Assembly (NCBI GenBank): GCA_945860275.1
Contig: CAMAPN010000009.1
Location: 1 to 40,251, forward strand
Direction: 5' to 3'
Source: Bifidobacterium breve
Lineage (GTDB): Bacteria; Actinomycetota; Actinomycetes; Nanopelagicales; Nanopelagicaceae
DNA: 40,251 nucleotides
Part shown: positions 22,037 to 34,522 of the stretch, piece by piece
How the letters are laid out: each line of letters opens with the position of its first letter
Position numbering within the stretch: the stretch's first letter is position 1
Position numbers and translations under genes: made by a program
Notes under the pieces: generated by a model
Databases searched by the model: none
What the model was told of the DNA's origin: nothing
The model's input: the letters and a program-made list of their open reading frames with translations, nothing else

Positions 22037-22975
22037 TTAAGCCAAGCCGTAGCGTTTAAGCATTCCTACACCGATGCTCGCGCGGCGCACGCGCTCTCTG
22101 CTTGTCGATTCCACAAGCCCTTGAATATGTCCACCTGATGGATAGAGACCTGGCGCGTTACGAACGGTGAATTTAAGGTAGATCGGCGCTGCAACGCGCA
22201 CGAGATCAGGTACCTCATAGTGACGCACTGCACCGCCAAAGTCATCAGCAGCCTCCACGTATACATCAACGGGAATATCGACCTGCGCACGGATAGCAGC
22301 GATCTGTGCCAGCGACAGATCGGTTGTGAGATTTAACGTTGAGGCTCCCAAATCTTCATAAAGTGCAGCCGTTGCTGGGTTATTACATGGCAGCGCCACG
22401 GATGTCTTCAAGACAAAATCACTTGGTAAGTCACCTTTACGTTTTGCTTCACCTAGGACTTTTAGTAAGCCCACATCTCCGACGAGAATCGAACGCACGC
22501 CGAGAGCGGCTCCGTGTAGAACATCTTCCATCGCAAACCGAACTTGATCTGCGCCTCGAAGTGAAGGATGAACAGTTGCACTTGATGTTCCAACCGTTGC
22601 TCTTCCAATATCCCACGATGAGCGCGGGCCAACGAAGAGACAGACCTCAGCGCCAGACTCTTTGCCGAGCGCCAGATACTCTTTGATCTCTTCATCGCGA
22701 AGCATCATGATTCCGCTGCCTTGGCTCACGCGATGAAAATCGAGCGAATACTTCTTCGCTTCGTCGATAACTGCGCGCATCGCGGCGGGGCCTTCTACTG
22801 AAGGAATCTCAACTTTCCATCGCGCACCGTCGCTAAAGCGCTTTGCGCTCTCAGGAAGTCCATCAAGATCCTCGTAACCCACGCCTTGCGCAGCAAGTGC
22901 AGCAATCGCGCGCTTCATTGGTCCTTGCGGATCGCGCGAGCTCTTCCACTCAGTATCTGAATTCTCTGCTGCCAT
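22037..22975 (-). CDS. Conserved TIM-barrel-like protein (U32-peptidase-like) in a KDG/KDPG operon
   Basis: A 312-residue soluble protein that I cannot assign firmly. Features include FHRVSQGSGIMM, a GPRSSWDIGRA segment, an internal CNNPATAALYEDLGA stretch and a C-terminal half rich in short strands, together suggesting a TIM barrel. Similar actinobacterial proteins are sometimes labelled U32-family peptidase, but no peptidase signature is visible to me. It begins two bases after the KDPG aldolase stop and is the last gene of the SMP-30/KdgK/Eda operon. A role in sugar-acid metabolism, perhaps an aldolase or epimerase-like step, is an inference from position only. Confidence 0.7.
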   Translation of the reverse strand: MAAENSDTEWKSSRDPQGPMKRAIAALAAQGVGYEDLDGLPESAKRFSDGARWKVEIPSVEGPAAMRAVIDEAKKYSLDFHRVSQGSGIMMLRDEEIKEYLALGKESGAEVCLFVGPRSSWDIGRATVGTSSATVHPSLRGADQVRFAMEDVLHGAALGVRSILVGDVGLLKVLGEAKRKGDLPSDFVLKTSVALPCNNPATAALYEDLGASTLNLTTDLSLAQIAAIRAQVDIPVDVYVEAADDFGGAVRHYEVPDLVRVAAPIYLKFTVRNAPGLYPSGGHIQGLVESTSRERVRRASIGVGMLKRYGLA

Positions 22976-25503: not shown

Positions 25504-26886
25504 ATGGCAGATACGCCTTTGGCACAAGCCCTTCGCACCCTTCTTGGTCCAGATCGCGTGCTCGACGACCCCGCCGCGCGCGAGGCATATAGCCGCGATG
25601 CAACGCCCTTATTTAAGGGGTTGCCAGAAGTCATCGTCACACCACATTCCACCGCAGAGGTAAGCGAAGTGGTCAAGTTCGCACGACAATCGAAGACCCC
25701 AATTATTGCTCGTGGCGCTGGCAGTAACTTGTGTGCAGCAACAGTGCCATTGCAAGGTGGCATCGTGTTAAGCATGATGCAAATGAAACAAATCCTTGAA
25801 GTCTCACGGAATGAACTCCTGGCCGTCGTGCAACCAGGTGTCTCGACACAGCAACTAGATGATGCGGTCGCCAAAGAAGGTTTGATGTATGTACCTGATC
25901 CTGGCTCAAAGACTGTTTCGACAATCGGCGGAAATGTTGCCACGAGCGCGGGTGGTTTACGTGGCTTGAAATACGGCACTACAAAGAACTACATCCTGGC
26001 ACTTGAAGCAGTACTAGGAACCGGCGAAATCATCCGAACGGGTGGCCGGTTAGTCAAAGATGTTGCAGGCTATGACATCACGCGATTACTTATTGGCAGC
26101 GAAGGAACGTTGGCGATCTTTACCGAAATCACCACGGTGCTTAGCCCTCGACCAAAAGCGTCGAAGTATGGCGTTGCGTATTTCAATAATCTCGCGGATG
26201 CATCCGTTGCTGTCGACTCGATTGTGGCAAGCGGAATTTTGCCTGCGACCTTGGAATTCCTCGACAACACCTGCATCAAAGCGGTTGAAGATTTCGCACA
26301 TCTTGGCCTCGATAAAGATGCTGGCGCGCTCTTGCTTTTTGGCGATGATGGCAGCGCAGAGAGCGTTGCAAAGGCAGTAACTGAAATGGCTGATATCTCA
26401 GCTTCCGCGCGTGGAGTGCGCGCAGTCACGCTTGCACCAGATGTAGCTGCTGCAGAAGCGCTGCTCTATGCCCGCAGATGCTCACTTCCTGCACTGGCTC
26501 GTCTTGGCTCAATGTCGATTCTTGAAGATATCTCTGTTCCTCGGCCACAAATGAGCAAAGCTGCTGATGCGATAGAACGAATTGGCGAAAAATACTCACT
26601 GTTGATAGGGACCTTTGGCCATGCTGGTGATGGAAACCTTCATCCAACAATAGTCATTAACAAAGATGATGCAGATGAGGTGGCGCGCGCAGAAAAATCC
26701 TTAGCTGACATTTTTAATCTCGCATTAGATCTTGGCGGGACAATTACTGGCGAACACGGCGTCGGCAGCGCAAAGCTCCCCTACTTACGACAGAAACTCG
26801 GGGATGTTTCACTCGCGCTTCATCGCAATATCAAATCTGTATTTGATCCCGATGGAATTCTTAACCCTGGTCGTGTGGGCTCATGA
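25504..26886 (+). CDS. glcD: FAD-linked oxidase, glycolate oxidase subunit GlcD-like
   Basis: A 460-residue flavoprotein of the vanillyl-alcohol-oxidase/GlcD type. The FAD-binding PCMH domain shows ARGAGSNLCAA, PDPGSKTVSTIGGNVATSAGG and GSEGTLA. The C-terminal domain carries FGHAGDGNLHP and GEHGVGSAK. It oxidises a 2-hydroxy acid, glycolate or D-lactate being typical, and passes electrons to the iron-sulfur subunit encoded next (ATGA overlap). GGAGGGGAA precedes the ATG. The second flavin subunit GlcE of E. coli is absent, which is common in actinobacteria. Glycolate is a typical freshwater algal exudate and also a by-product of aldolase cleavage of pentonate-derived keto acids. Confidence 0.9.
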   Translation: MADTPLAQALRTLLGPDRVLDDPAAREAYSRDATPLFKGLPEVIVTPHSTAEVSEVVKFARQSKTPIIARGAGSNLCAATVPLQGGIVLSMMQMKQILEVSRNELLAVVQPGVSTQQLDDAVAKEGLMYVPDPGSKTVSTIGGNVATSAGGLRGLKYGTTKNYILALEAVLGTGEIIRTGGRLVKDVAGYDITRLLIGSEGTLAIFTEITTVLSPRPKASKYGVAYFNNLADASVAVDSIVASGILPATLEFLDNTCIKAVEDFAHLGLDKDAGALLLFGDDGSAESVAKAVTEMADISASARGVRAVTLAPDVAAAEALLYARRCSLPALARLGSMSILEDISVPRPQMSKAADAIERIGEKYSLLIGTFGHAGDGNLHPTIVINKDDADEVARAEKSLADIFNLALDLGGTITGEHGVGSAKLPYLRQKLGDVSLALHRNIKSVFDPDGILNPGRVGS

Positions 26887-27938
26887 ACGAAGATCGCCCA
26901 CTAGGAAAATTCACTCAATCAAAACTAGATCGCTGCATTTCGTGCGGATACTGCTTGCCCGCCTGTCCTACCTACCAATTAACTGGTGAAGAACAATCAT
27001 CTCCTAGAGGTCGCATTACTTTGATGCGAGCTCTCCAAGATGGCCGCTTACCGTTTGCTGATGCTGGCGCACAGGAGCAAGCTTCCTTCTGCCTCGGATG
27101 CCGCGCATGTGAACCGGTCTGTCCAGCAGGTGTGGAGTACGGCGTCCTCCTTGAAGAGTGGCGCGATATCACCTGGCGCGGTCGCAAACGTCCATTGATC
27201 ATTAAGGCTCTCTTCCAGATGGTCAATGCCCCTTGGCGAGTGAACCTGATGAGCGCGCTCTCTCCTATAGCGAGAAATCGACGAGCTTCCACTGATGTAC
27301 ATCTTGCGCTTGGCTGCTTCGAGCGCCGACTTTTTCCAAAGGTGAGTAAGGCGGTTGCGCGACTTGCACCAGAGGTTTCAATCGATCGGTCGCAAGGATG
27401 TTGTGGCGCACTCCATGCGCATAACGGAGACCTCGAAGGCGGCAATGAGCTAGCCAAGCAGCTCGGCGAAAAGCTTCCCGGAACGATTCTCTCCACGGCT
27501 GGTGGCTGTGCAGCGCATCTATCCTCAGTGCTCGGCAAGGATCGAGTCCAAGAATTCTCACAATGGTGGGAGCAATCGCTATCACCGATCATGAAGAACG
27601 GGAAACCGATTCGAGTTGGACTACAAGATTCGTGTCACTTGAGGAACGGAATGGGCGTCTTTAAAGAGCCACGAAAAATTCTCCAACAACTTGGCGAGTA
27701 TGTCGAAGTTCCAAACGCACAGGGATGTTGTGGCGCTGCTGGAAGTTACTCACTTCTACGTTCTCGTGACAGCAAGCGAGTCATCGCTCCTAAAGTTGCA
27801 GCGATTAAGGCACTTGAGCTTGATTTTCTCGTCAGCGTCAACCCTGGATGTACGCGCCAACTTAAGAGCGCGCTCCGTAAAGCACGGATGAAAACTAAAG
27901 TCGTCCATATCGCAGAATTAATAGCGCTTGCTCCATGA
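26883..27938 (+). CDS. glcF: Iron-sulfur oxidoreductase subunit GlcF-like
   Basis: A 351-residue protein with two [4Fe-4S] motifs: Cys18, 21, 24 and 28, then Cys70, 73, 76 and 80. Two CCG domains follow, each with QGCCGA, at about 175 and 285. This is the domain order of glycolate oxidase GlcF and related membrane-associated heterodisulfide-reductase-like subunits. It takes electrons from GlcD and probably passes them to the quinone pool. It overlaps glcD and the next gene by four bases each, so the three genes form one unit. Confidence 0.92.
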   Translation: MNEDRPLGKFTQSKLDRCISCGYCLPACPTYQLTGEEQSSPRGRITLMRALQDGRLPFADAGAQEQASFCLGCRACEPVCPAGVEYGVLLEEWRDITWRGRKRPLIIKALFQMVNAPWRVNLMSALSPIARNRRASTDVHLALGCFERRLFPKVSKAVARLAPEVSIDRSQGCCGALHAHNGDLEGGNELAKQLGEKLPGTILSTAGGCAAHLSSVLGKDRVQEFSQWWEQSLSPIMKNGKPIRVGLQDSCHLRNGMGVFKEPRKILQQLGEYVEVPNAQGCCGAAGSYSLLRSRDSKRVIAPKVAAIKALELDFLVSVNPGCTRQLKSALRKARMKTKVVHIAELIALAP

Positions 27939-28870
27939 GCGAGGTTTTTGCGCAGCGCACCCTCGAGAAATTGCTCGGTAAACATGATTTCACTGTAGAT
28001 CTGCTCTCTGGTGGCGTTTCTTGCGATACCGCTAAAGTCTCTTGGGCAGGCACGAATGGTGCCGTCGTAAAACGTGCATTAGCGCAATTAAGAGTTCCCG
28101 GACAATGGGAAGCTGATGTCGACCGAATTCTCGCTGAGGCAGATGCAATCGAGCTTTTTGGCGCTATTACGCCAGAGAATGTGCCGCGACTAATTTCAAG
28201 AAGCGATGAAGAGCTTGCCATTGCTATCGAATTAGCAGCAGCAGATATGCATGACTGGCGATATTCGATGCTCTCCGGAATTGTGGAGCCAGAAGTTGGC
28301 GCGACATTAGGAAAAGTTCTCGCAACATGGCATACCAAGACGCGGGCACGCGCGTTGCCTACTCGAATTGCCGCAGGGAAGAAGCGATTATTCGATCTGC
28401 GTGCGGGTGCGTTTTACGGTGGCATGGCGCGCACCTGGCCAGAGTTCGCTCCCCTCATTAATGAACTGTCAGCAGAGCTGATGGAATCTCAAGAGTGCGC
28501 AGTACACGGTGACTTCAGTCCTAAAAATGTTCTGCATGGCCCAAGCGGAACGTGGGTCTTGGATTTTGAGGTGACGCATCAAGGCGCTCCAGTCTTTGAT
28601 GTGGCTTACATGTGCGCCCATCTAAATCTCAAGGCAATCGCACTCGTTGCGCACCGTGATTTGGTAGCGCAGACGGTGCAGAACTTTCTCCACTCGTATT
28701 CACTTCACGCAGGCGTGATTCCGCAGAACGTTTCCTCTCATACAGGAACCATCATGGCGGTGCGGGTAGCAGGCATATCACAGGTGAATTACCTGAGCGA
28801 CGACCAGAGAGAGCGCGCTGTGGTGCGCGCCAAGGAGCTACTAAATGGAGCGCCTGTACTTATCCCTTGA
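27935..28870 (+). CDS. Aminoglycoside-phosphotransferase-fold small-molecule kinase
   Basis: A 311-residue protein of the APH/choline-kinase superfamily. It shows Lys46 in a VVKRA strand (candidate ATP lysine), the catalytic loop VHGDFSPKNVL with Asp193 and Asn199, and VLDFE with metal-binding Asp210. It starts in an ATGA overlap with glcF, so it is part of the glycolate-oxidase-like operon. The substrate is probably a metabolite rather than an antibiotic. A sugar, sugar acid or glycerate-like compound would fit, but there is no direct evidence. Its 3' end overlaps the convergent permease gene by 11 bases. Confidence 0.8.
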   Translation: MSEVFAQRTLEKLLGKHDFTVDLLSGGVSCDTAKVSWAGTNGAVVKRALAQLRVPGQWEADVDRILAEADAIELFGAITPENVPRLISRSDEELAIAIELAAADMHDWRYSMLSGIVEPEVGATLGKVLATWHTKTRARALPTRIAAGKKRLFDLRAGAFYGGMARTWPEFAPLINELSAELMESQECAVHGDFSPKNVLHGPSGTWVLDFEVTHQGAPVFDVAYMCAHLNLKAIALVAHRDLVAQTVQNFLHSYSLHAGVIPQNVSSHTGTIMAVRVAGISQVNYLSDDQRERAVVRAKELLNGAPVLIP

Positions 28871-29771
28871 GTGAACCGCTGAGCAATCCGCGCAAGAAGT
28901 AGCGCCCCAAGAAGATATAGACGATTAGGGTTGGCAACGAGACGATTAAGGATGCCGTCATATTCAAGCCATAGAAGACTTGGTTGCTTGAACCAGTGAT
29001 GAAGTTCAGCGCAGTTGTAGCAACCGATAATTTTGGTGATCCACCAGTCAAGAAGATTGCGAAGAGGAAGTCGTTCCACGCCGAGGTGAACTGCCAAATG
29101 AGCACGACCACGAATGCAGGTAATGAAAGCGGCAGAATGATTGAGCGATAGATTCGAATTCGTGAAGCCTTATCAACCAGACCTGCCTCGATTAATTCAT
29201 CTGGAATGCTTGCGTAGTAATTTCTGAATATGAGCGTGCAGATCGGAATTCCATAAATGACGTGCGCCATCACCAGCACATAAATTGTTTTGTTGACCCC
29301 TAGGTTTGTAACAAATTGCACCAGCGGAATCATCACTGCCTGGTAAGGGATAAACATTCCAAAGAGGAAGAGTGTGAAAACCACGTTTGAGCCTGGAAAC
29401 TTCCATTTAGCAAATACGTACCCGTTGATCGACCCGATGATTGCCGAGATGATCGAGGATTGCAGGACGAAAAAGAGCGTACGAAGCATCGATTCACCCA
29501 AGCTAAATGCCGAGAAGTAATCGCCGCCACTCCACGCCGTTGGCCAAGCTGAAAAGTCTAAGCTCTTTGGTAGATCGAAAGCATTCACCAGGTAAACATC
29601 CTTAACGCCTTTGAGTGAATTGACCACCAAAACGTAGATCGGCATCACAATCAGGAACCAGATGAAGGTAAGCGAGGCGTACCGGAAGATCAACCAGAAT
29701 TGTTCTTTTCCGGAGCGTTTTCTCCTATTCGCTAGCGGAGTGATTTTTCTCTCGAGCAATTCGGCGCTCAT
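28860..29771 (-). CDS. Sugar ABC transporter permease, MalG/UgpE type
   Basis: A 303-residue membrane protein with six predicted helices after a basic N-terminus. The EAA loop appears as ELIEAGLVDKASRIRIYR followed by ILPLSLPA near residues 197-220. It overlaps the upstream permease gene by four bases (ATGA) and is the last gene of the second importer operon. No ATPase gene accompanies it. Confidence 0.93.
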   Translation of the reverse strand: MSAELLERKITPLANRRKRSGKEQFWLIFRYASLTFIWFLIVMPIYVLVVNSLKGVKDVYLVNAFDLPKSLDFSAWPTAWSGGDYFSAFSLGESMLRTLFFVLQSSIISAIIGSINGYVFAKWKFPGSNVVFTLFLFGMFIPYQAVMIPLVQFVTNLGVNKTIYVLVMAHVIYGIPICTLIFRNYYASIPDELIEAGLVDKASRIRIYRSIILPLSLPAFVVVLIWQFTSAWNDFLFAIFLTGGSPKLSVATTALNFITGSSNQVFYGLNMTASLIVSLPTLIVYIFLGRYFLRGLLSGSLKG

Positions 29772-30676
29772 CGATTCTCCTCTTCCTGCTTAATAACCCA
29801 ACGTAGGTAAGGAACGATAATCAAGGCAATGAGAAGCAAAAGAACGACTGCAATAGCAGTTCCCTTTGCGTAGTTTCGCTGATCGAATGTGGACTCCCAC
29901 ATGTAGACAGCAACAACTTGGGTGACATAAGACTTTCCATTGATGCCGATGATCAAATCAAAAACCTTCATGGACACGTGGCCCAAAATAATTAAAACAG
30001 TGAAGAGAGTTGGAGTCAGTTGCGGGAAGAGCACGTATCGGTAAATCTTCGATTCGGAAGCGCCATCAACGCGCGCGGCTTCACGTAAATCATCTGGAAT
30101 GCCACGGAATCCAGCGAGAAATAGTGCGAGAACGTAACCTGCCATCTGCCAGATTGCTGGGAGCGCCAACGCATAGGCGGCTCCATTTTCAGATAGATAC
30201 CAAGAGTTCTGTAAGAATCCCAAGCCAGCTTTTTGCAAAAGTAAATTAAGTCCACCAGCATCCGCATCGACATTCGAATTAAGTAGCCAGTTCCACACTG
30301 TTCCCATCGCGATGAAAGAGATTGCTAGCGGATAAAGATAGAAAGAGCGGAAGAACCCCTCGCCTTTGATTCCCTTCTCCAAGAGCAAAGCCATGATGAA
30401 GCCAGCAATTGTTGTGCCAACAATAAAGACGAAAGTGAACTTGAGAAGATTTTCAAACGCATGAGTAAATCGAGAATCTGAGATGAGATTCGAGTAATTC
30501 TGTAAACCTACGAACTTAGGCTCTTTGATGGAGGCGCTAATTCGATCTGTCATCGAAATCCGAACGGTCCACGCAATCATGCCGTAGACGAACACTGCTA
30601 CAGCGGCAATTGACGGCACGACGAGCAAGAAGCCACCTATCCAAGTGGAGAATCGCCTATTCGTCTGGAGCGCCAT
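29768..30676 (-). CDS. Sugar ABC transporter permease, MalF/UgpA type
   Basis: A 302-residue permease with a hydrophobic N-terminal helix and the EAA loop REAARVDGASESKIYRY followed by LFPQLTP near residues 200-225. AGGTGAG lies nine bases before the ATG at 30676. The first bases of that site come from the edge of a seven-copy heptanucleotide repeat, so repeat changes would sit directly against the ribosome site. It pairs with the next permease, and with the lipoprotein binding protein encoded upstream across a strong hairpin. Confidence 0.93.
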   Translation of the reverse strand: MALQTNRRFSTWIGGFLLVVPSIAAVAVFVYGMIAWTVRISMTDRISASIKEPKFVGLQNYSNLISDSRFTHAFENLLKFTFVFIVGTTIAGFIMALLLEKGIKGEGFFRSFYLYPLAISFIAMGTVWNWLLNSNVDADAGGLNLLLQKAGLGFLQNSWYLSENGAAYALALPAIWQMAGYVLALFLAGFRGIPDDLREAARVDGASESKIYRYVLFPQLTPTLFTVLIILGHVSMKVFDLIIGINGKSYVTQVVAVYMWESTFDQRNYAKGTAIAVVLLLLIALIIVPYLRWVIKQEEENR

Positions 30677-30690
30677 CGTTGTTATCTCAC

Positions 30691-30739
30691 CTATTTTCTA
30701 TTTTCTATTTTCTATTTTCTAATTTCTAATTTCTAATTT
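30691..30739. repeat. Seven-copy heptanucleotide tandem repeat in a permease leader
   Basis: On the plus strand four copies of CTATTTT (30691-30718) are followed by three copies of CTAATTT (30719-30739). On the transcribed minus strand this reads as A-rich AAATTAG then AAAATAG units immediately upstream of the permease Shine-Dalgarno. It contains no dyad symmetry and no unique spacers, so it is not CRISPR. It may act as an unstructured ribosome-loading region or a slippage-prone spacer. Confidence 0.9.
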
Positions 30740-30769
30740 CTTTCTCTACTGCAATTGAGGTAATCATGA

Positions 30770-30799
30770 AACTGGTGGGCAGTTGCCTGCCCACCAGTT
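30770..30799 (-). promoter_or_regulatory. Strong intra-operon stem-loop after the binding-protein gene
   Basis: A perfect 13-bp stem (30770-30782 with 30787-30799) closes a 4-base loop. With one bulged A it extends about four pairs further. In the minus-strand transcript it lies between the binding-protein stop and the permease leader. No T-run follows it there, so it is more likely an mRNA-stabilising or attenuating hairpin than a full terminator. It is the counterpart of the hairpin at 5840-5878 in the other importer operon, though the sequences are unrelated. Confidence 0.7.
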
Positions 30800-30825
30800 C
30801 ATTACTGCGTTACGGCTTAAGAGAT

Positions 30826-32136
30826 TTAAGCCTGTCCTGCATCGTATGCAGCTTGGAGATCTGCAGCGAGGCCCTTGTTATCTTTTGCGCCACCGCTGAA
30901 GTACTTACCAACTGCTGCGTTGTATGCAGCCATCAAAGCGTTGTTGCCAGTGACGCCGTGGACAGTTGAACCGACGAGGCGGTCTGTCTTCCACTGCTCC
31001 ATAGCAGCCTTGAGGTAATCGTCATAAAGGGCGGTATCAGCATCGGTACGAGCTGGGATTGAGCCCTTCTTTGGATTGAAGGCATCTTGTCCGGCCTTGG
31101 AGCCAGCAACAGTCAACCAAGCAATTCCTGCATTGCGGTGCTTTGCACCAACAGGAAGTGTGAAGGAATCTGATAGCCACTGGTACACGCCTACAGTTCC
31201 TGGAGCAGGTGCCCAGGTGTAGTCAGTTCCAAGCGTCAAGCCATCAGCTTGCCACTGAGCAGATGCCCAGTCGCCCATGATGAAGAAGCCTGCTTTGCCA
31301 GAGGTTACGAGCTTGCCAGCGTCTGGCCAGTCGAGGTTTCCTGCACCCTTATTTCCATAAGAGAGCGCCTTCTGGAAGTTCTTCAATGCAGCTTCAACTT
31401 CTGGACCAGTCCAGGAAGTATTGCCGTTGAAGAGACCTTCGAATGCATCTGGACCAAGAGTTGCAAGGAGCATCCAGTCAAGGAGGTGAGCAATTGCCCA
31501 GTCACCCTTACCAGCAAGTGCTAGTCCTGGAATTCCAATTTTCTTGAACTTATCGAGAGCTGCGAAGAACTCATCGAGCGTTGCTGGAGCGGCAGTGATG
31601 CCAGCCTTCTCAGCAGTTGCAGGGTTCCACCAAAGTACGTTTGCACGGTGGATGTTCACTGGAACTGAGTAGATCTTTCCATCAACGGTAAGAGTCTTCA
31701 CGAGATCTGCTGGGAAGATTGTGTCCCAACCTTGCTCTTTGTAAAGGAAGGTGAGGTCTTCGAGCTGTCCACCCTTGACGTAACCGTCAAGCTCCATACC
31801 AGCGTGTGCTTGGAATGAGTCTGGTGGATCATTTGCATCGAGGCGGCTCTGAAGAACTGCCTTTGCGTTTACACCGGCGCCACCAGAAATTGCGGCATTG
31901 ATGTACTTAGTATCTGGGTTGTTTGCTGCGAACTCAGCTTCCAAGCCGGCAAGGCCTGCTGCTTCTCCACCTGCAGCCCACCAGGTAAAGATTTCGAGCT
32001 CAGGATCAGCTACTACTTCAGCTGACTCTTCCGATGCGGTCTCTTCTGACGCGCTGTCGCTCGAGGATGAGCAACCTGCTGCGAGAAGTGCGATAGCAAA
32101 TAGACCAGCAACGAATTTATATGTGCCTTTACGCAT
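30826..32136 (-). CDS. Sugar ABC transporter substrate-binding lipoprotein
   Basis: A 436-residue family-1 solute-binding protein. The N-terminus is a lipoprotein signal ending in LLAAGC, with Cys22 as the lipid anchor, followed by a Ser/Glu-rich linker (about 23-45) that tethers the binding domain to the membrane. It resembles glucose/oligosaccharide binders of actinobacteria (FTWWAAGGEAAGL at the mature start), but the ligand is not certain. Its gene is divergent from the RraA-like gene at 32336, and a palindrome and a TTGACA element lie between them. Confidence 0.93.
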   Translation of the reverse strand: MRKGTYKFVAGLFAIALLAAGCSSSSDSASEETASEESAEVVADPELEIFTWWAAGGEAAGLAGLEAEFAANNPDTKYINAAISGGAGVNAKAVLQSRLDANDPPDSFQAHAGMELDGYVKGGQLEDLTFLYKEQGWDTIFPADLVKTLTVDGKIYSVPVNIHRANVLWWNPATAEKAGITAAPATLDEFFAALDKFKKIGIPGLALAGKGDWAIAHLLDWMLLATLGPDAFEGLFNGNTSWTGPEVEAALKNFQKALSYGNKGAGNLDWPDAGKLVTSGKAGFFIMGDWASAQWQADGLTLGTDYTWAPAPGTVGVYQWLSDSFTLPVGAKHRNAGIAWLTVAGSKAGQDAFNPKKGSIPARTDADTALYDDYLKAAMEQWKTDRLVGSTVHGVTGNNALMAAYNAAVGKYFSGGAKDNKGLAADLQAAYDAGQA

Positions 32137-32335: not shown

Positions 32336-32998
32336 ATGACCTCACTATTGCGCCCTGACCTAGATCCGCTCCGCCCGATTTTTAACGCCGCCTTGACCTC
32401 CGATTGCCTTGACCACCTTGGCTTTCGAAACCAAGTGCTGGGCTCGGATATCGCAATGATCTCTGGCGATGGCGTGATGATGGGCTATGCCTTTCCCGTC
32501 AAGCTCGAGCCAGTTGAGGTTGCTCCAGAAATCCCATACGTCGGTTTACTTAAAGCGCTCGATGCAATTGGCAAAGATGATGTCTTCATTAAACCATCTA
32601 GTCGTCGACACACATCTGCGCTCTGGGGCGAATTACTTTCCAATGCCTGCAAATTTAAAGGAGCTGCTGGGGCGCTTACTGATGCTCCTGTGCGCGATGT
32701 TGCACGGACTCGAGCGCTTGGTTTCAAAGTATTTGGAACGGGCACATGGCCAATTGATATCAATAGTCGTTATGAAGTTGTTGCACATAATGTGCCTGGC
32801 GAAATAGATGGAGTAGAGATTAATCCAGGCGATTTAATCGTTGGCGATGTTGATGGTGTTGTTGTCGTTCCCAATCATTTAATTCCACAGGTGATTGCGT
32901 TCGTAGAGGAGAAGAATTCCGGCGAGAATCTCTTTCGCAAAGCGGTAAAGGAAGGAATGTCACCCAGCGAAGCATTTGCAAAATTTGGAGTGCTGTAG
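32336..32998 (+). CDS. RraA/HMG-aldolase-like protein
   Basis: A 220-residue protein of the RraA/4-hydroxy-4-methyl-2-oxoglutarate aldolase family. It shows WGELLSNACK (97-106), GAAGALTDAPVRD with Arg120-Asp121 that bind substrate and metal, and GDLIVGDVDGVVVVP (165-179). Enzymatic members cleave 4-carboxy-4-hydroxy-2-oxo acids or decarboxylate oxaloacetate. RraA proper inhibits RNase E and is shorter (about 160 residues). The catalytic residues and the metabolic context favour an aldolase/lyase. It is two bases from the enolase-paralogue gene, so both products probably act on consecutive intermediates. It is divergent from the second importer. Confidence 0.85.
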   Translation: MTSLLRPDLDPLRPIFNAALTSDCLDHLGFRNQVLGSDIAMISGDGVMMGYAFPVKLEPVEVAPEIPYVGLLKALDAIGKDDVFIKPSSRRHTSALWGELLSNACKFKGAAGALTDAPVRDVARTRALGFKVFGTGTWPIDINSRYEVVAHNVPGEIDGVEINPGDLIVGDVDGVVVVPNHLIPQVIAFVEEKNSGENLFRKAVKEGMSPSEAFAKFGVL

Positions 32999-33000
32999 CG

Positions 33001-34278
33001 TTGAGCGAAATTTCGCAGATTGACCTCTGGCAAGTCCTCGATTCTCGAGGAAATCCAACAGTGGCCGCGCGAGTTCATATCGGCTCACATCTTGCGATTG
33101 CTATCGCTCCCGCTGGTGCGAGCACTGGTAGCCATGAAGCGCTCTTCTTGCGCGATGGTGGAGATTCGTACGACGGAAAGAGCGTGCAACAGGCAATCGA
33201 ACGTTTCGCGCGCGAAGTTTCACCTTCTTTGATTGGCCTTGCCGGAAATGACTTTTACGAGCTGGATCGAGCGTTGCGCACCATCGATTCTTCAGCAACC
33301 CAATCTCGCTATGGTGGACATATCCCAGTGGCGATCACCATTGCCGCCTGGTTGGCGTACGCAAAGCAAAGTAACTCCCAGCCCTTCGAAGTGATTGCCG
33401 CGCACCTAAACTGCGCACCTGTACTGCCTATGCCAATGGTCAATATCTTCTCTGGTGGCGCGCATGCAGCTAGCGCAATCGATATTCAAGATATTCTCGC
33501 AATCCCCACTCGCGCTTCATCTTTTAGTGAAGGCTTGGAATGGGTATGGAGAATTAGGGAAGCAACTAAAAAGAGCCTTGCTTCGAAAGGCTTTGATACC
33601 TCACTCGTTGCAGATGAAGGTGGCCTGACTGCAAGATTGGGAAGCGATGAAGAAGCAATCGTCTTAGTTTCTGATGCAATCTCTGAAGTTGGGTTGTCGG
33701 GAAAAGCACATATCGCTCTCGATATCGCAGCAAATCAACTTTTCAGCGACGGCAAATACCTCATTCATAAGAATGGCAATGAGGTCGCCTTGGACTCAGA
33801 AGATTTTGTGGCTCACTGGAGCGCTTGGCTAGATAAGTATCCCATCATCTCGGTTGAGGATGGTGCGGCGGAAGATGATGAATCAGGATGGCTCGCGCAA
33901 CGTGCTCTAGTCGCACGAATTCAAATTCTTGGCGATGATCGGTATGCAACGCAATCATCGAGGCTTGAAGTAGGCCTGTCTAAGAGCGAAGCGAATGCCA
34001 TCTTGATCAAACCGAATCAAGCAGGAACGCTATTCGCTGCAATCTCAACGCTTGGTTTGGCAAAGCGAAATAATTGGAACACGGTTGTATCTGCCAGATC
34101 AGGTGAGACAGAGGAGAGTTGGCTCGTCGACCTTGCTACTGGAAGCGCGGCTGGGCAGATAAAAGTGGGCTCCACCCATAGATCTGAGCGCACTGCCAAG
34201 TGGAATCGTTTATTGGAACTTACTTACGATGAAGCCGCGCCTTTTAATAGCGGGCAATCGCTCCGCAAATTTATTTAA
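33001..34278 (+). CDS. Enolase paralogue with altered active site
   Basis: A 425-residue protein with the complete enolase fold. Retained residues (yeast numbers in brackets) are Ser41 (S39), His155 (H159), Glu206 (E211), Asp241, Glu286 and Asp312 (metal ligands), Lys337 (K345), Arg366-Ser367 and Lys388 (K396). Two active-site positions differ. The usual Glu of IQEFM is Asp164 (E168), and the usual His of VSHRSGET is Ala365 (H373). In yeast enolase both take part in the leaving-hydroxyl side of the reaction, so ordinary 2-phosphoglycerate dehydration is doubtful. It starts at TTG 33001, two bases after the RraA-like gene, with no gene of lower glycolysis beside it. A related substrate, or a lyase/racemase step feeding the RraA-like enzyme, is an inference. 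Confidence 0.85.
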   Translation: MSEISQIDLWQVLDSRGNPTVAARVHIGSHLAIAIAPAGASTGSHEALFLRDGGDSYDGKSVQQAIERFAREVSPSLIGLAGNDFYELDRALRTIDSSATQSRYGGHIPVAITIAAWLAYAKQSNSQPFEVIAAHLNCAPVLPMPMVNIFSGGAHAASAIDIQDILAIPTRASSFSEGLEWVWRIREATKKSLASKGFDTSLVADEGGLTARLGSDEEAIVLVSDAISEVGLSGKAHIALDIAANQLFSDGKYLIHKNGNEVALDSEDFVAHWSAWLDKYPIISVEDGAAEDDESGWLAQRALVARIQILGDDRYATQSSRLEVGLSKSEANAILIKPNQAGTLFAAISTLGLAKRNNWNTVVSARSGETEESWLVDLATGSAAGQIKVGSTHRSERTAKWNRLLELTYDEAAPFNSGQSLRKFI

Positions 34279-34522
34279 CTGATTGCTTGATAGGTTCTAT
34301 AGAAAGGACTTCGACTCCGCCGATCTGTCCCAATACATTTAAAAGATCAGTCGGGTCGGTCCCTGGAATCGCGATCACCACATCATCAATTCCTTTTCCA
34401 CCTTCGTTGCTGACTACAGTGAAATTTCGAATATCGCCACCTGCAAATCCAATTGCGGAAGCAACTGACCCAAGGGAACCTGGTCGATCAGGTAGAGAGA
34501 TCTTCAAATGGAATTCAGCCAT
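34271..34522 (-). CDS. Small ACT-domain protein
   Basis: An 83-residue protein made of a single ACT domain: LKISLPDRPGSLGSVASAIG at the start, then GGDIRNFTVVS, with a final beta strand EVLSIEP. ACT domains bind amino acids or similar ligands and usually regulate metabolic enzymes; stand-alone ones act in trans or as dimers. The target is unknown. The gene overlaps the convergent enolase paralogue by eight bases and follows the HtrA-type protease gene after 16 bases. Confidence 0.85.
   Translation of the reverse strand: MAEFHLKISLPDRPGSLGSVASAIGFAGGDIRNFTVVSNEGGKGIDDVVIAIPGTDPTDLLNVLGQIGGVEVLSIEPIKQSVK

Follow-up and report, generated by a model that had tools for sequence, protein, structure and literature searches.

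Enolase is treated as a one-reaction family. What, then, is the function of an enolase-like protein that has two altered active-site residues, and whose gene is coupled to a gene for an RraA-like protein? Such a gene lies in the actinobacterial DNA analysed here, a stretch of 40,251 nucleotides (hereafter the window). A preliminary description of this DNA noted an enolase-like open reading frame (ORF) that starts with TTG two bases after an RraA-like gene, carries Ala365 and Asp164 in place of a His and a Glu, and is divergent from a sugar importer. It proposed that the protein acts on a different hydroxy acid and that the two adjacent genes encode a new two-step route. Its statements on the sequence are all right: the TTG codon is located two bases past the stop codon (32996-32998) of the RraA-like gene, and an ABC sugar-type importer is encoded on the opposite strand. 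The pair and the codons of interest are as follows.

32336-32998, plus strand: RraA/HMG-aldolase-like protein, 220 aa (PF03737, 98 bits; VRD motif kept)
33001-34278, plus strand: enolase paralogue (Ala/Asp type), 425 aa, TTG start (Pfam, NCBIfam, AlphaFold model)
33451-33453, plus strand: codon for Ser151, four residues before H155 (yeast His159)
33490-33492, plus strand: codon for Asp164 (GAT), Glu168 in yeast enolase (codon reading, alignment)
34093-34095, plus strand: codon for Ala365 (GCC), His373 in yeast enolase (codon reading, alignment)
34165-34167, plus strand: codon for Val389, which adjoins K388 (yeast Lys396)

The paralogue carries the Pfam domains Enolase_N and Enolase_C (PF03952/PF00113) and passes the NCBIfam model TIGR01060 'eno' (355.8 bits, cut-off 300), and MR_MLE_N and MR_MLE_C domains were absent from it in the Pfam search. 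Eleven of 13 aligned active-site positions are canonical (S39, H159, Q167, E211, D246, E295, D320, K345, R374, S375 and K396 in yeast numbering), the changed ones being D164 and A365, and the metal, base and phosphate ligands are all retained. Identity to canonical enolases is approximately 37-40%, and the fold in the AlphaFold model (pLDDT 93) superposes on enolases, with a TM of 0.94 to the M. tuberculosis enzyme. A search of the PDB with the window and Paracoccus sequences recognised no structure from the clade described below; the best matches are labelled ordinary enolases, and the top three alignments were checked residue by residue. A promoter scan around the RraA-paralogue pair gave one weak match, fewer than in shuffled sequences. 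Convergent with the paralogue is an unlisted 83-aa ORF (34271-34522, minus strand), by eye like a small ACT-domain protein, whose end overlaps the paralogue stop codon.

The window gene is an extra enolase, because its genome (G000; actinobacterial, 1.30 Mb, approximately 92% complete) has a canonical eno on contig C56 that carries both His and Glu. The Enolase_C scores of the two are 433.8 bits for the C56 gene and 233.2 for the paralogue. The earlier judgement that the window protein is not the glycolytic enzyme therefore holds, and the idea that the paralogue stands in for a missing eno is ruled out. The sole genome with an Ala/Asp copy only is G006, which is 78% complete. Chance or sequencing error behind the residue changes is also ruled out, since the same residues are present in relatives at 70-79% identity and across phyla.

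Among 135 aligned sequences, 93 have Ala and Asp, 41 have His and Glu, one has Gly and Asp, and none is mixed; these rows are not independent, and a few contigs are present twice via different routes. The patterns of the contig scan included SARSG, so Ala was partly selected for whereas Asp was not, and a search of relatives by homology only returned the same two types without pattern selection. When a tree of 66 rows was computed with IQ-TREE and both trait columns were left out, the Ala/Asp rows fell on one side of a 100/99 branch, as a clade apart from the glycolytic enolases. The two changes thus define a clade. Four positions split this clade from canonical enolases completely (S151, D164, A365 and V389), and the first and last of these were lacking from the preliminary description, as was the linked kinase at 27935-28870. 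Position 151 is Asn in all canonical enolases aligned and Ser or Gly in the clade, and position 389 is Thr, Ser or Ala in the former and Val or Ile in the latter. The metal, base and phosphate-site residues are kept in all 93 clade members. As judged from these sequences, neofunctionalisation of the paralogue is well supported. One clade member (L107, 1423-2697) has SGRSAE for SARSGE, so that Gly occupies the His position and the following Gly is Ala.

Among 60 relatives searched, the window's genus and a neighbouring one have paralogues at 66-79% identity. Many other members of the family, and a few genomes outside it, have a second set at approximately 43-47%. Further Actinomycetota members of the clade, found by the contig scan, are in Embleya, Frankia, Streptomyces, Actinocorallia, Nocardia and Microbacterium. 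Others are in Acidobacteriota, Planctomycetota, Chloroflexota, Bacteroidota, Armatimonadota, Pseudomonadota and Bacillota (about eight phyla in all); many come from metagenome-assembled genomes, so single phylum labels may be wrong. Plasmid-borne members occur in Paracoccus, Roseibium, Rhizobium, Azospirillum, Cupriavidus and R. opacus. A second, different group of actinobacterial enolase paralogues keeps His and Glu (L056, L057, L059 and L163); the first three are at 34-36% to the window gene, and a representative on a Mycobacterium branderi plasmid resides among hydrogenase/NADH-dehydrogenase-like genes.

The preliminary description held that the equivalents of the changed residues matter for the hydroxyl, and published work agrees. 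In Synechococcus enolase, Glu168 and His367 hold water near C3 of phosphoenolpyruvate (PEP) (PMC8996150). The hydroxyl of 2-phosphoglycerate has contacts to Glu166 and Glu207, as numbered in S. aureus, in other enolases (PMC4667285). The changes therefore sit at the C3 hydroxyl end of the site and not at the metal, base or phosphate sites. The four separating positions are at or beside H155, Q163, R366 and K388. Three changes (N to S/G, E to D and H to A) bring smaller side chains, and the fourth (T to V/I) is to a non-polar one. Such replacements would suit an extra group on C3, and the clade may thus accommodate a substituent at C3 or eliminate the C3 group in another way.

The RraA-like protein has the RD motif of the RraA/HMG (CHA) aldolase family (PF03737), but all of its NCBIfam matches are under cut-off and its pairing with the paralogue is confined to two genera. 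The gene is conserved upstream, VRD motif included, in six relatives (G001-G004, G015 and G028), and an immediately preceding RraA gene is limited to the window's genus and a neighbouring one (seven genomes). All seven RraA-eno pairs found are of the Ala/Asp type, and none has the canonical His and Glu. Elsewhere, none of 53 contig-scan loci with enough flank has RraA within 3 kb of an Ala-type paralogue, which rules out RraA as a universal partner. The expectation that clade members neighbour RraA-like genes is consequently borne out in seven genomes of two genera and fails in those 53 loci, and an enolase-RraA route as the core of the system is not supported. Since the partner shared between phyla is a kinase, RraA makes more sense as the downstream enzyme of one lineage.

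In the window, this kinase is 4 kb upstream of the RraA-paralogue pair, across the importer and at the end of a different gene run, which the GlcD-like gene opens.

25504-26886, plus strand: GlcD-like FAD 2-hydroxyacid oxidase subunit (TIGR00387, 449 bits, below the cut-off of 568)
26883-27938, plus strand: GlcF-like iron-sulfur subunit (NF008434, 149 bits, below the cut-off of 333)
27935-28870, plus strand: APH-fold kinase, 311 aa (PF01636); its start overlaps the glcF-like stop
28860-32136, minus strand: ABC sugar-type importer between the kinase and the RraA-paralogue pair, divergent from the latter (permeases 28860-29771 and 29768-30676; binding protein 30826-32136)

Importer synteny is kept in G003, G004 and G015. 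The window kinase is orthologous to the one next to the paralogue in other phyla, and it has the catalytic motifs HGDFSPKN and LDFE and intact ATP-binding motifs. Its closest solved structures, by sequence and by fold, are methylthioribose kinases, and its best NCBIfam match is S-methyl-5-thioribose kinase (MtnK, TIGR01767). However, the match fails with a score far under the cut-off (48.2 bits against 275; 48-75 bits for the kinases overall), and the kinase has a conserved ARVDGKSPVEYL stretch that sets it apart from MtnK. No methionine-salvage genes were recognised among the neighbours examined.

Kinase and paralogue are coupled across the clade. The kinase is adjacent and on the same strand for 68 of 93 clade members versus 0 of 41 canonical enolases (Fisher p about 2e-17, with rows that are not independent), and it is somewhere in the locus for 80 of the 93. 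Outside the window's genus and its neighbour, it often overlaps the paralogue by 4 nt. Three of the 13 members without a kinase in the locus belong to the window's genus or its neighbour and are on short contigs. In the window's family, 25 genomes were compared: 14 of the 15 with the paralogue have the kinase, the one exception (G001) being 85% complete, and none of the 10 without the paralogue has it. Kinase and enolase distances correlate over 59 non-redundant pairs (r 0.79; best of 5000 permutations 0.14), to which shared vertical descent could contribute. Of the closest relatives from beyond the family (50-51%), two (L073 and L074) encode a xylose-isomerase-like protein upstream, where the kinase would otherwise be.

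We also searched from the kinase side, in 148 actinobacterial genomes drawn across the phylum and chosen without regard to enolase sequence. Besides the window's own genome there were two strong matches, each adjoining an Ala/Asp enolase in a genome that also carries a canonical eno, whereas three weaker matches (E 1e-31 to 1e-52) were in genomes with canonical enolase only. With a strong kinase in 2 of 148 other genomes across the phylum, the module is rare outside the window's family. The kinase-enolase pair of Enterobacter gave no DNA match to E. coli genomes. The kinase-enolase module is a larger finding than the enolase-RraA pairing.

Further genes around the paralogue give indications of the pathway. 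A scan of 82 neighbour proteins returned nine FAH-family hydrolases, five 2-hydroxyacid dehydrogenases, five xylose-isomerase-like proteins and three short-chain dehydrogenases (SDRs); 2-hydroxyacid dehydrogenases of the PGDH/GhrB family recur. R. opacus PD630 has the row FAH, 2-hydroxyacid dehydrogenase, paralogue, kinase, FAH. Paracoccus and Roseibium plasmids have a kinase-enolase-FAH-SDR-sugar ABC importer cluster, within 19 kb of which no IlvD- or MLE-type dehydratase is annotated. The Paracoccus FAH protein most resembles 2,4-didehydro-3-deoxy-L-rhamnonate hydrolase, at 352 bits against a cut-off of 500. Acid-type transporters (TctABC, and a TcuC-like symporter) are found in other clusters, and an IlvD-type or MLE-type dehydratase is next door in several Nanopelagicaceae clusters. 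The FAH hydrolase, SDR and 2-hydroxyacid dehydrogenase partners suggest sugar-acid catabolism. In the known L-fucose route, a dehydratase makes a 2-keto-3-deoxy acid, which goes either to an aldolase or to an SDR plus a hydrolase (PMC11199699). By analogy, the kinase-paralogue pair would occupy the place of the dehydratase, and the SDR and FAH proteins, or the RraA-like protein in the window's genus, would occupy those of the two continuations. This comparison, too, makes RraA one lineage's downstream enzyme.

Several observations on gene surroundings are recorded here. On three Rhizobium plasmids (L153, L158 and L168), the paralogue is accompanied by an extradiol-dioxygenase-like VOC protein, a cupin and an alcohol dehydrogenase, with PEP carboxylase, a 2-hydroxyacid dehydrogenase and the kinase on the other strand. 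The PEP carboxylase scores as canonical (1113.7 bits, cut-off 815), and the idea that it is a paralogue hinting at a PEP analogue was dropped. Positions 1-32136 of the window form a dense catabolic island in this 1.3-Mb genome, with two sugar ABC importers, several SDRs, an IlvD-type dehydratase, two FAH-like proteins, a 2-hydroxyacid dehydrogenase, SMP30 lactonase, KDG kinase, KDPG aldolase, PPDK and an MR/MLE-like protein, some of these genes being named by eye. At 22037-22975 (minus strand), a 312-aa protein with a weak Pfam U32-peptidase match and without an NCBIfam family adjoins the KDG-kinase-like and KDPG-aldolase-like genes. In other family members, its homologues are located within the kinase-paralogue run itself, and the protein is possibly an uncharacterised sugar-acid enzyme.

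We propose, with a probability of roughly 0.5, that the gene belongs to an enolase subfamily of old origin and wide distribution, which has no glycolytic role and acts together with an APH-fold kinase in sugar-acid breakdown. The substrate of the kinase would be a 2,3-dihydroxy sugar acid that exceeds glycerate in size, with at least four carbons, and the phosphate would be placed on its C2 hydroxyl. With the carboxylate bound to Mg, Lys337 of the paralogue would take the C2 proton and the C3 hydroxyl would leave, as in the action of an aldonate dehydratase, to give the enol phosphate of a 2-keto-3-deoxy acid. The phosphate would then be lost. Different lineages would finish the pathway with an SDR plus an FAH hydrolase or with a set that includes a 2-hydroxyacid dehydrogenase, and in the window's genus the RraA-like protein is predicted to act as a pyruvate aldolase that cleaves the downstream 2-keto acid. 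Some findings weigh against this proposal. The IlvD/MLE-type dehydratases nearby in several Nanopelagicaceae clusters indicate that the module is no simple replacement there, and no gene for removal of the enol phosphate was identified. In addition, some clade members are without a kinase in the locus, the window kinase is at a distance in a different run, and the Rhizobium kinase run with its canonical-scoring PEP carboxylase fits PEP as the product.

This last observation leads to the main rival, in which the kinase makes 2-phosphoglycerate and the paralogue is an enolase isozyme that converts it to PEP, for dedicated salvage of glycerate or hydroxypyruvate. The Rhizobium plasmids, on which genes for PEP carboxylase, a 2-hydroxyacid dehydrogenase and the kinase form a run close to the paralogue, the position of the window kinase after glycolate-oxidase-like genes and the recurring PGDH/GhrB-family enzymes all speak for it, and hydrolysis of a six-carbon diketo acid by an FAH protein would, by known chemistry, give glycerate. 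However, the canonical eno that is also present would do the same reaction, the absence of His and Glu, a fixed trait across phyla, is not easily squared with unchanged chemistry, and four pocket positions change together; we regard the isozyme as unlikely. Also quite unlikely is the elimination of a leaving group other than hydroxide, for example if the kinase phosphorylated the C3 hydroxyl and the phosphate then left. Acid help from Glu168 and His373 would be unneeded in such a reaction, and it is the C3 hydroxyl with which the lost residues deal. Moreover, an APH-type 25-hydroxysteroid kinase, which is among the fold matches of the kinase model, acts in an ATP-dependent dehydration (PMC8449060). 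Against this, the clade shows no variation in the binding site for a phosphate on the C2 oxygen (yeast S39, H159, R374 and S375), which argues for phosphorylation at C2.

The retention of Lys337 and Glu206, which flank the substrate in enolase, next to a changed hydroxyl-handling pair would also fit a racemase or epimerase that acts at C2 of a 2-phospho acid without dehydration, such as one converting an L-glycerate-derived 2-phosphate to the D form. Nevertheless, all members retain an acid at this position in the form of Asp164, and the partner genes point to 2-keto-3-deoxy chemistry, so that this reading is improbable. A free hydroxy acid as substrate, with the product passed to the RraA-like enzyme as first suggested, draws on the tight coupling of the two genes in two genera, on the kept RD motif and on a more distant, convergent RraA-like gene in G006. 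It is made highly improbable by the conserved phosphate site and the attached, conserved kinase, and by the lack of RraA elsewhere in the clade. Two changed catalytic residues could, finally, mark a dead or moonlighting enolase, but the other catalytic residues are invariant over many phyla and the genes are in operons with metabolic genes, so we give this reading hardly any weight.

The clade has consequences for annotation. TIGR01060 accepts the Ala/Asp clade (356-415 bits, cut-off 300) and does not separate the two clades, and members are therefore annotated as a second glycolytic enolase, as is seen for the phosphopyruvate hydratases of Rhodococcus opacus PD630, Paracoccus, Roseibium and Rhizobium. 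The clade probably marks an overlooked route of sugar-acid breakdown that is mislabelled as ordinary enolase in databases. If it does have another substrate, the second enolase in the metabolic models of many environmental bacteria is false, and a catabolic step is missing from them. The clade would then also be a natural test of how enolase specificity changes, with four separating positions and the other machinery intact.

A change of substrate has a precedent among enolase relatives in carboxyphosphonoenolpyruvate synthase of bialaphos (phosphonate) biosynthesis; no phosphonate genes were seen among the annotated neighbours of the clade paralogues. A search of the open literature returned nothing relevant on 2-phospho aldonates or on a kinase paired with an enolase paralogue, subscription journals being mostly outside its coverage. 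The authors who described the 25-hydroxysteroid kinase name only one ATP-dependent dehydration system besides their own (PMC8449060), and kinase-primed dehydration in sugar-acid breakdown would lengthen this short list.

Compared with enolase itself (phosphopyruvate hydratase, EC 4.2.1.11), the paralogue shares the two-domain fold, the Mg ligands, the Lys base and the phosphate-site residues, but it has the Ala, Asp, Ser/Gly and Val/Ile changes, forms a separate clade and is coupled to a kinase. Sugar-acid dehydratases of the MR/MLE and IlvD/Edd types have the same proposed place in a pathway, from aldonate to 2-keto-3-deoxy acid. These enzymes act on the free acid without ATP, whereas the paralogue belongs to the enolase group (PF00113/PF03952) and not to MR_MLE. 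With somewhat less than even odds, the kinase-enolase module could be a third kind of sugar-acid dehydratase, distinguished by a 2-phospho intermediate and a PEP-like enol phosphate. The 25-hydroxysteroid kinase and C-O lyase of Sterolibacterium likewise use a phosphotransferase-family kinase to prime an alcohol for dehydration, and there the lyase is separate and not known, and the phosphate is the leaving group (PMC8449060). The kinase described here, by contrast, comes with an enolase-type enzyme, whose product is expected to retain the phosphate.
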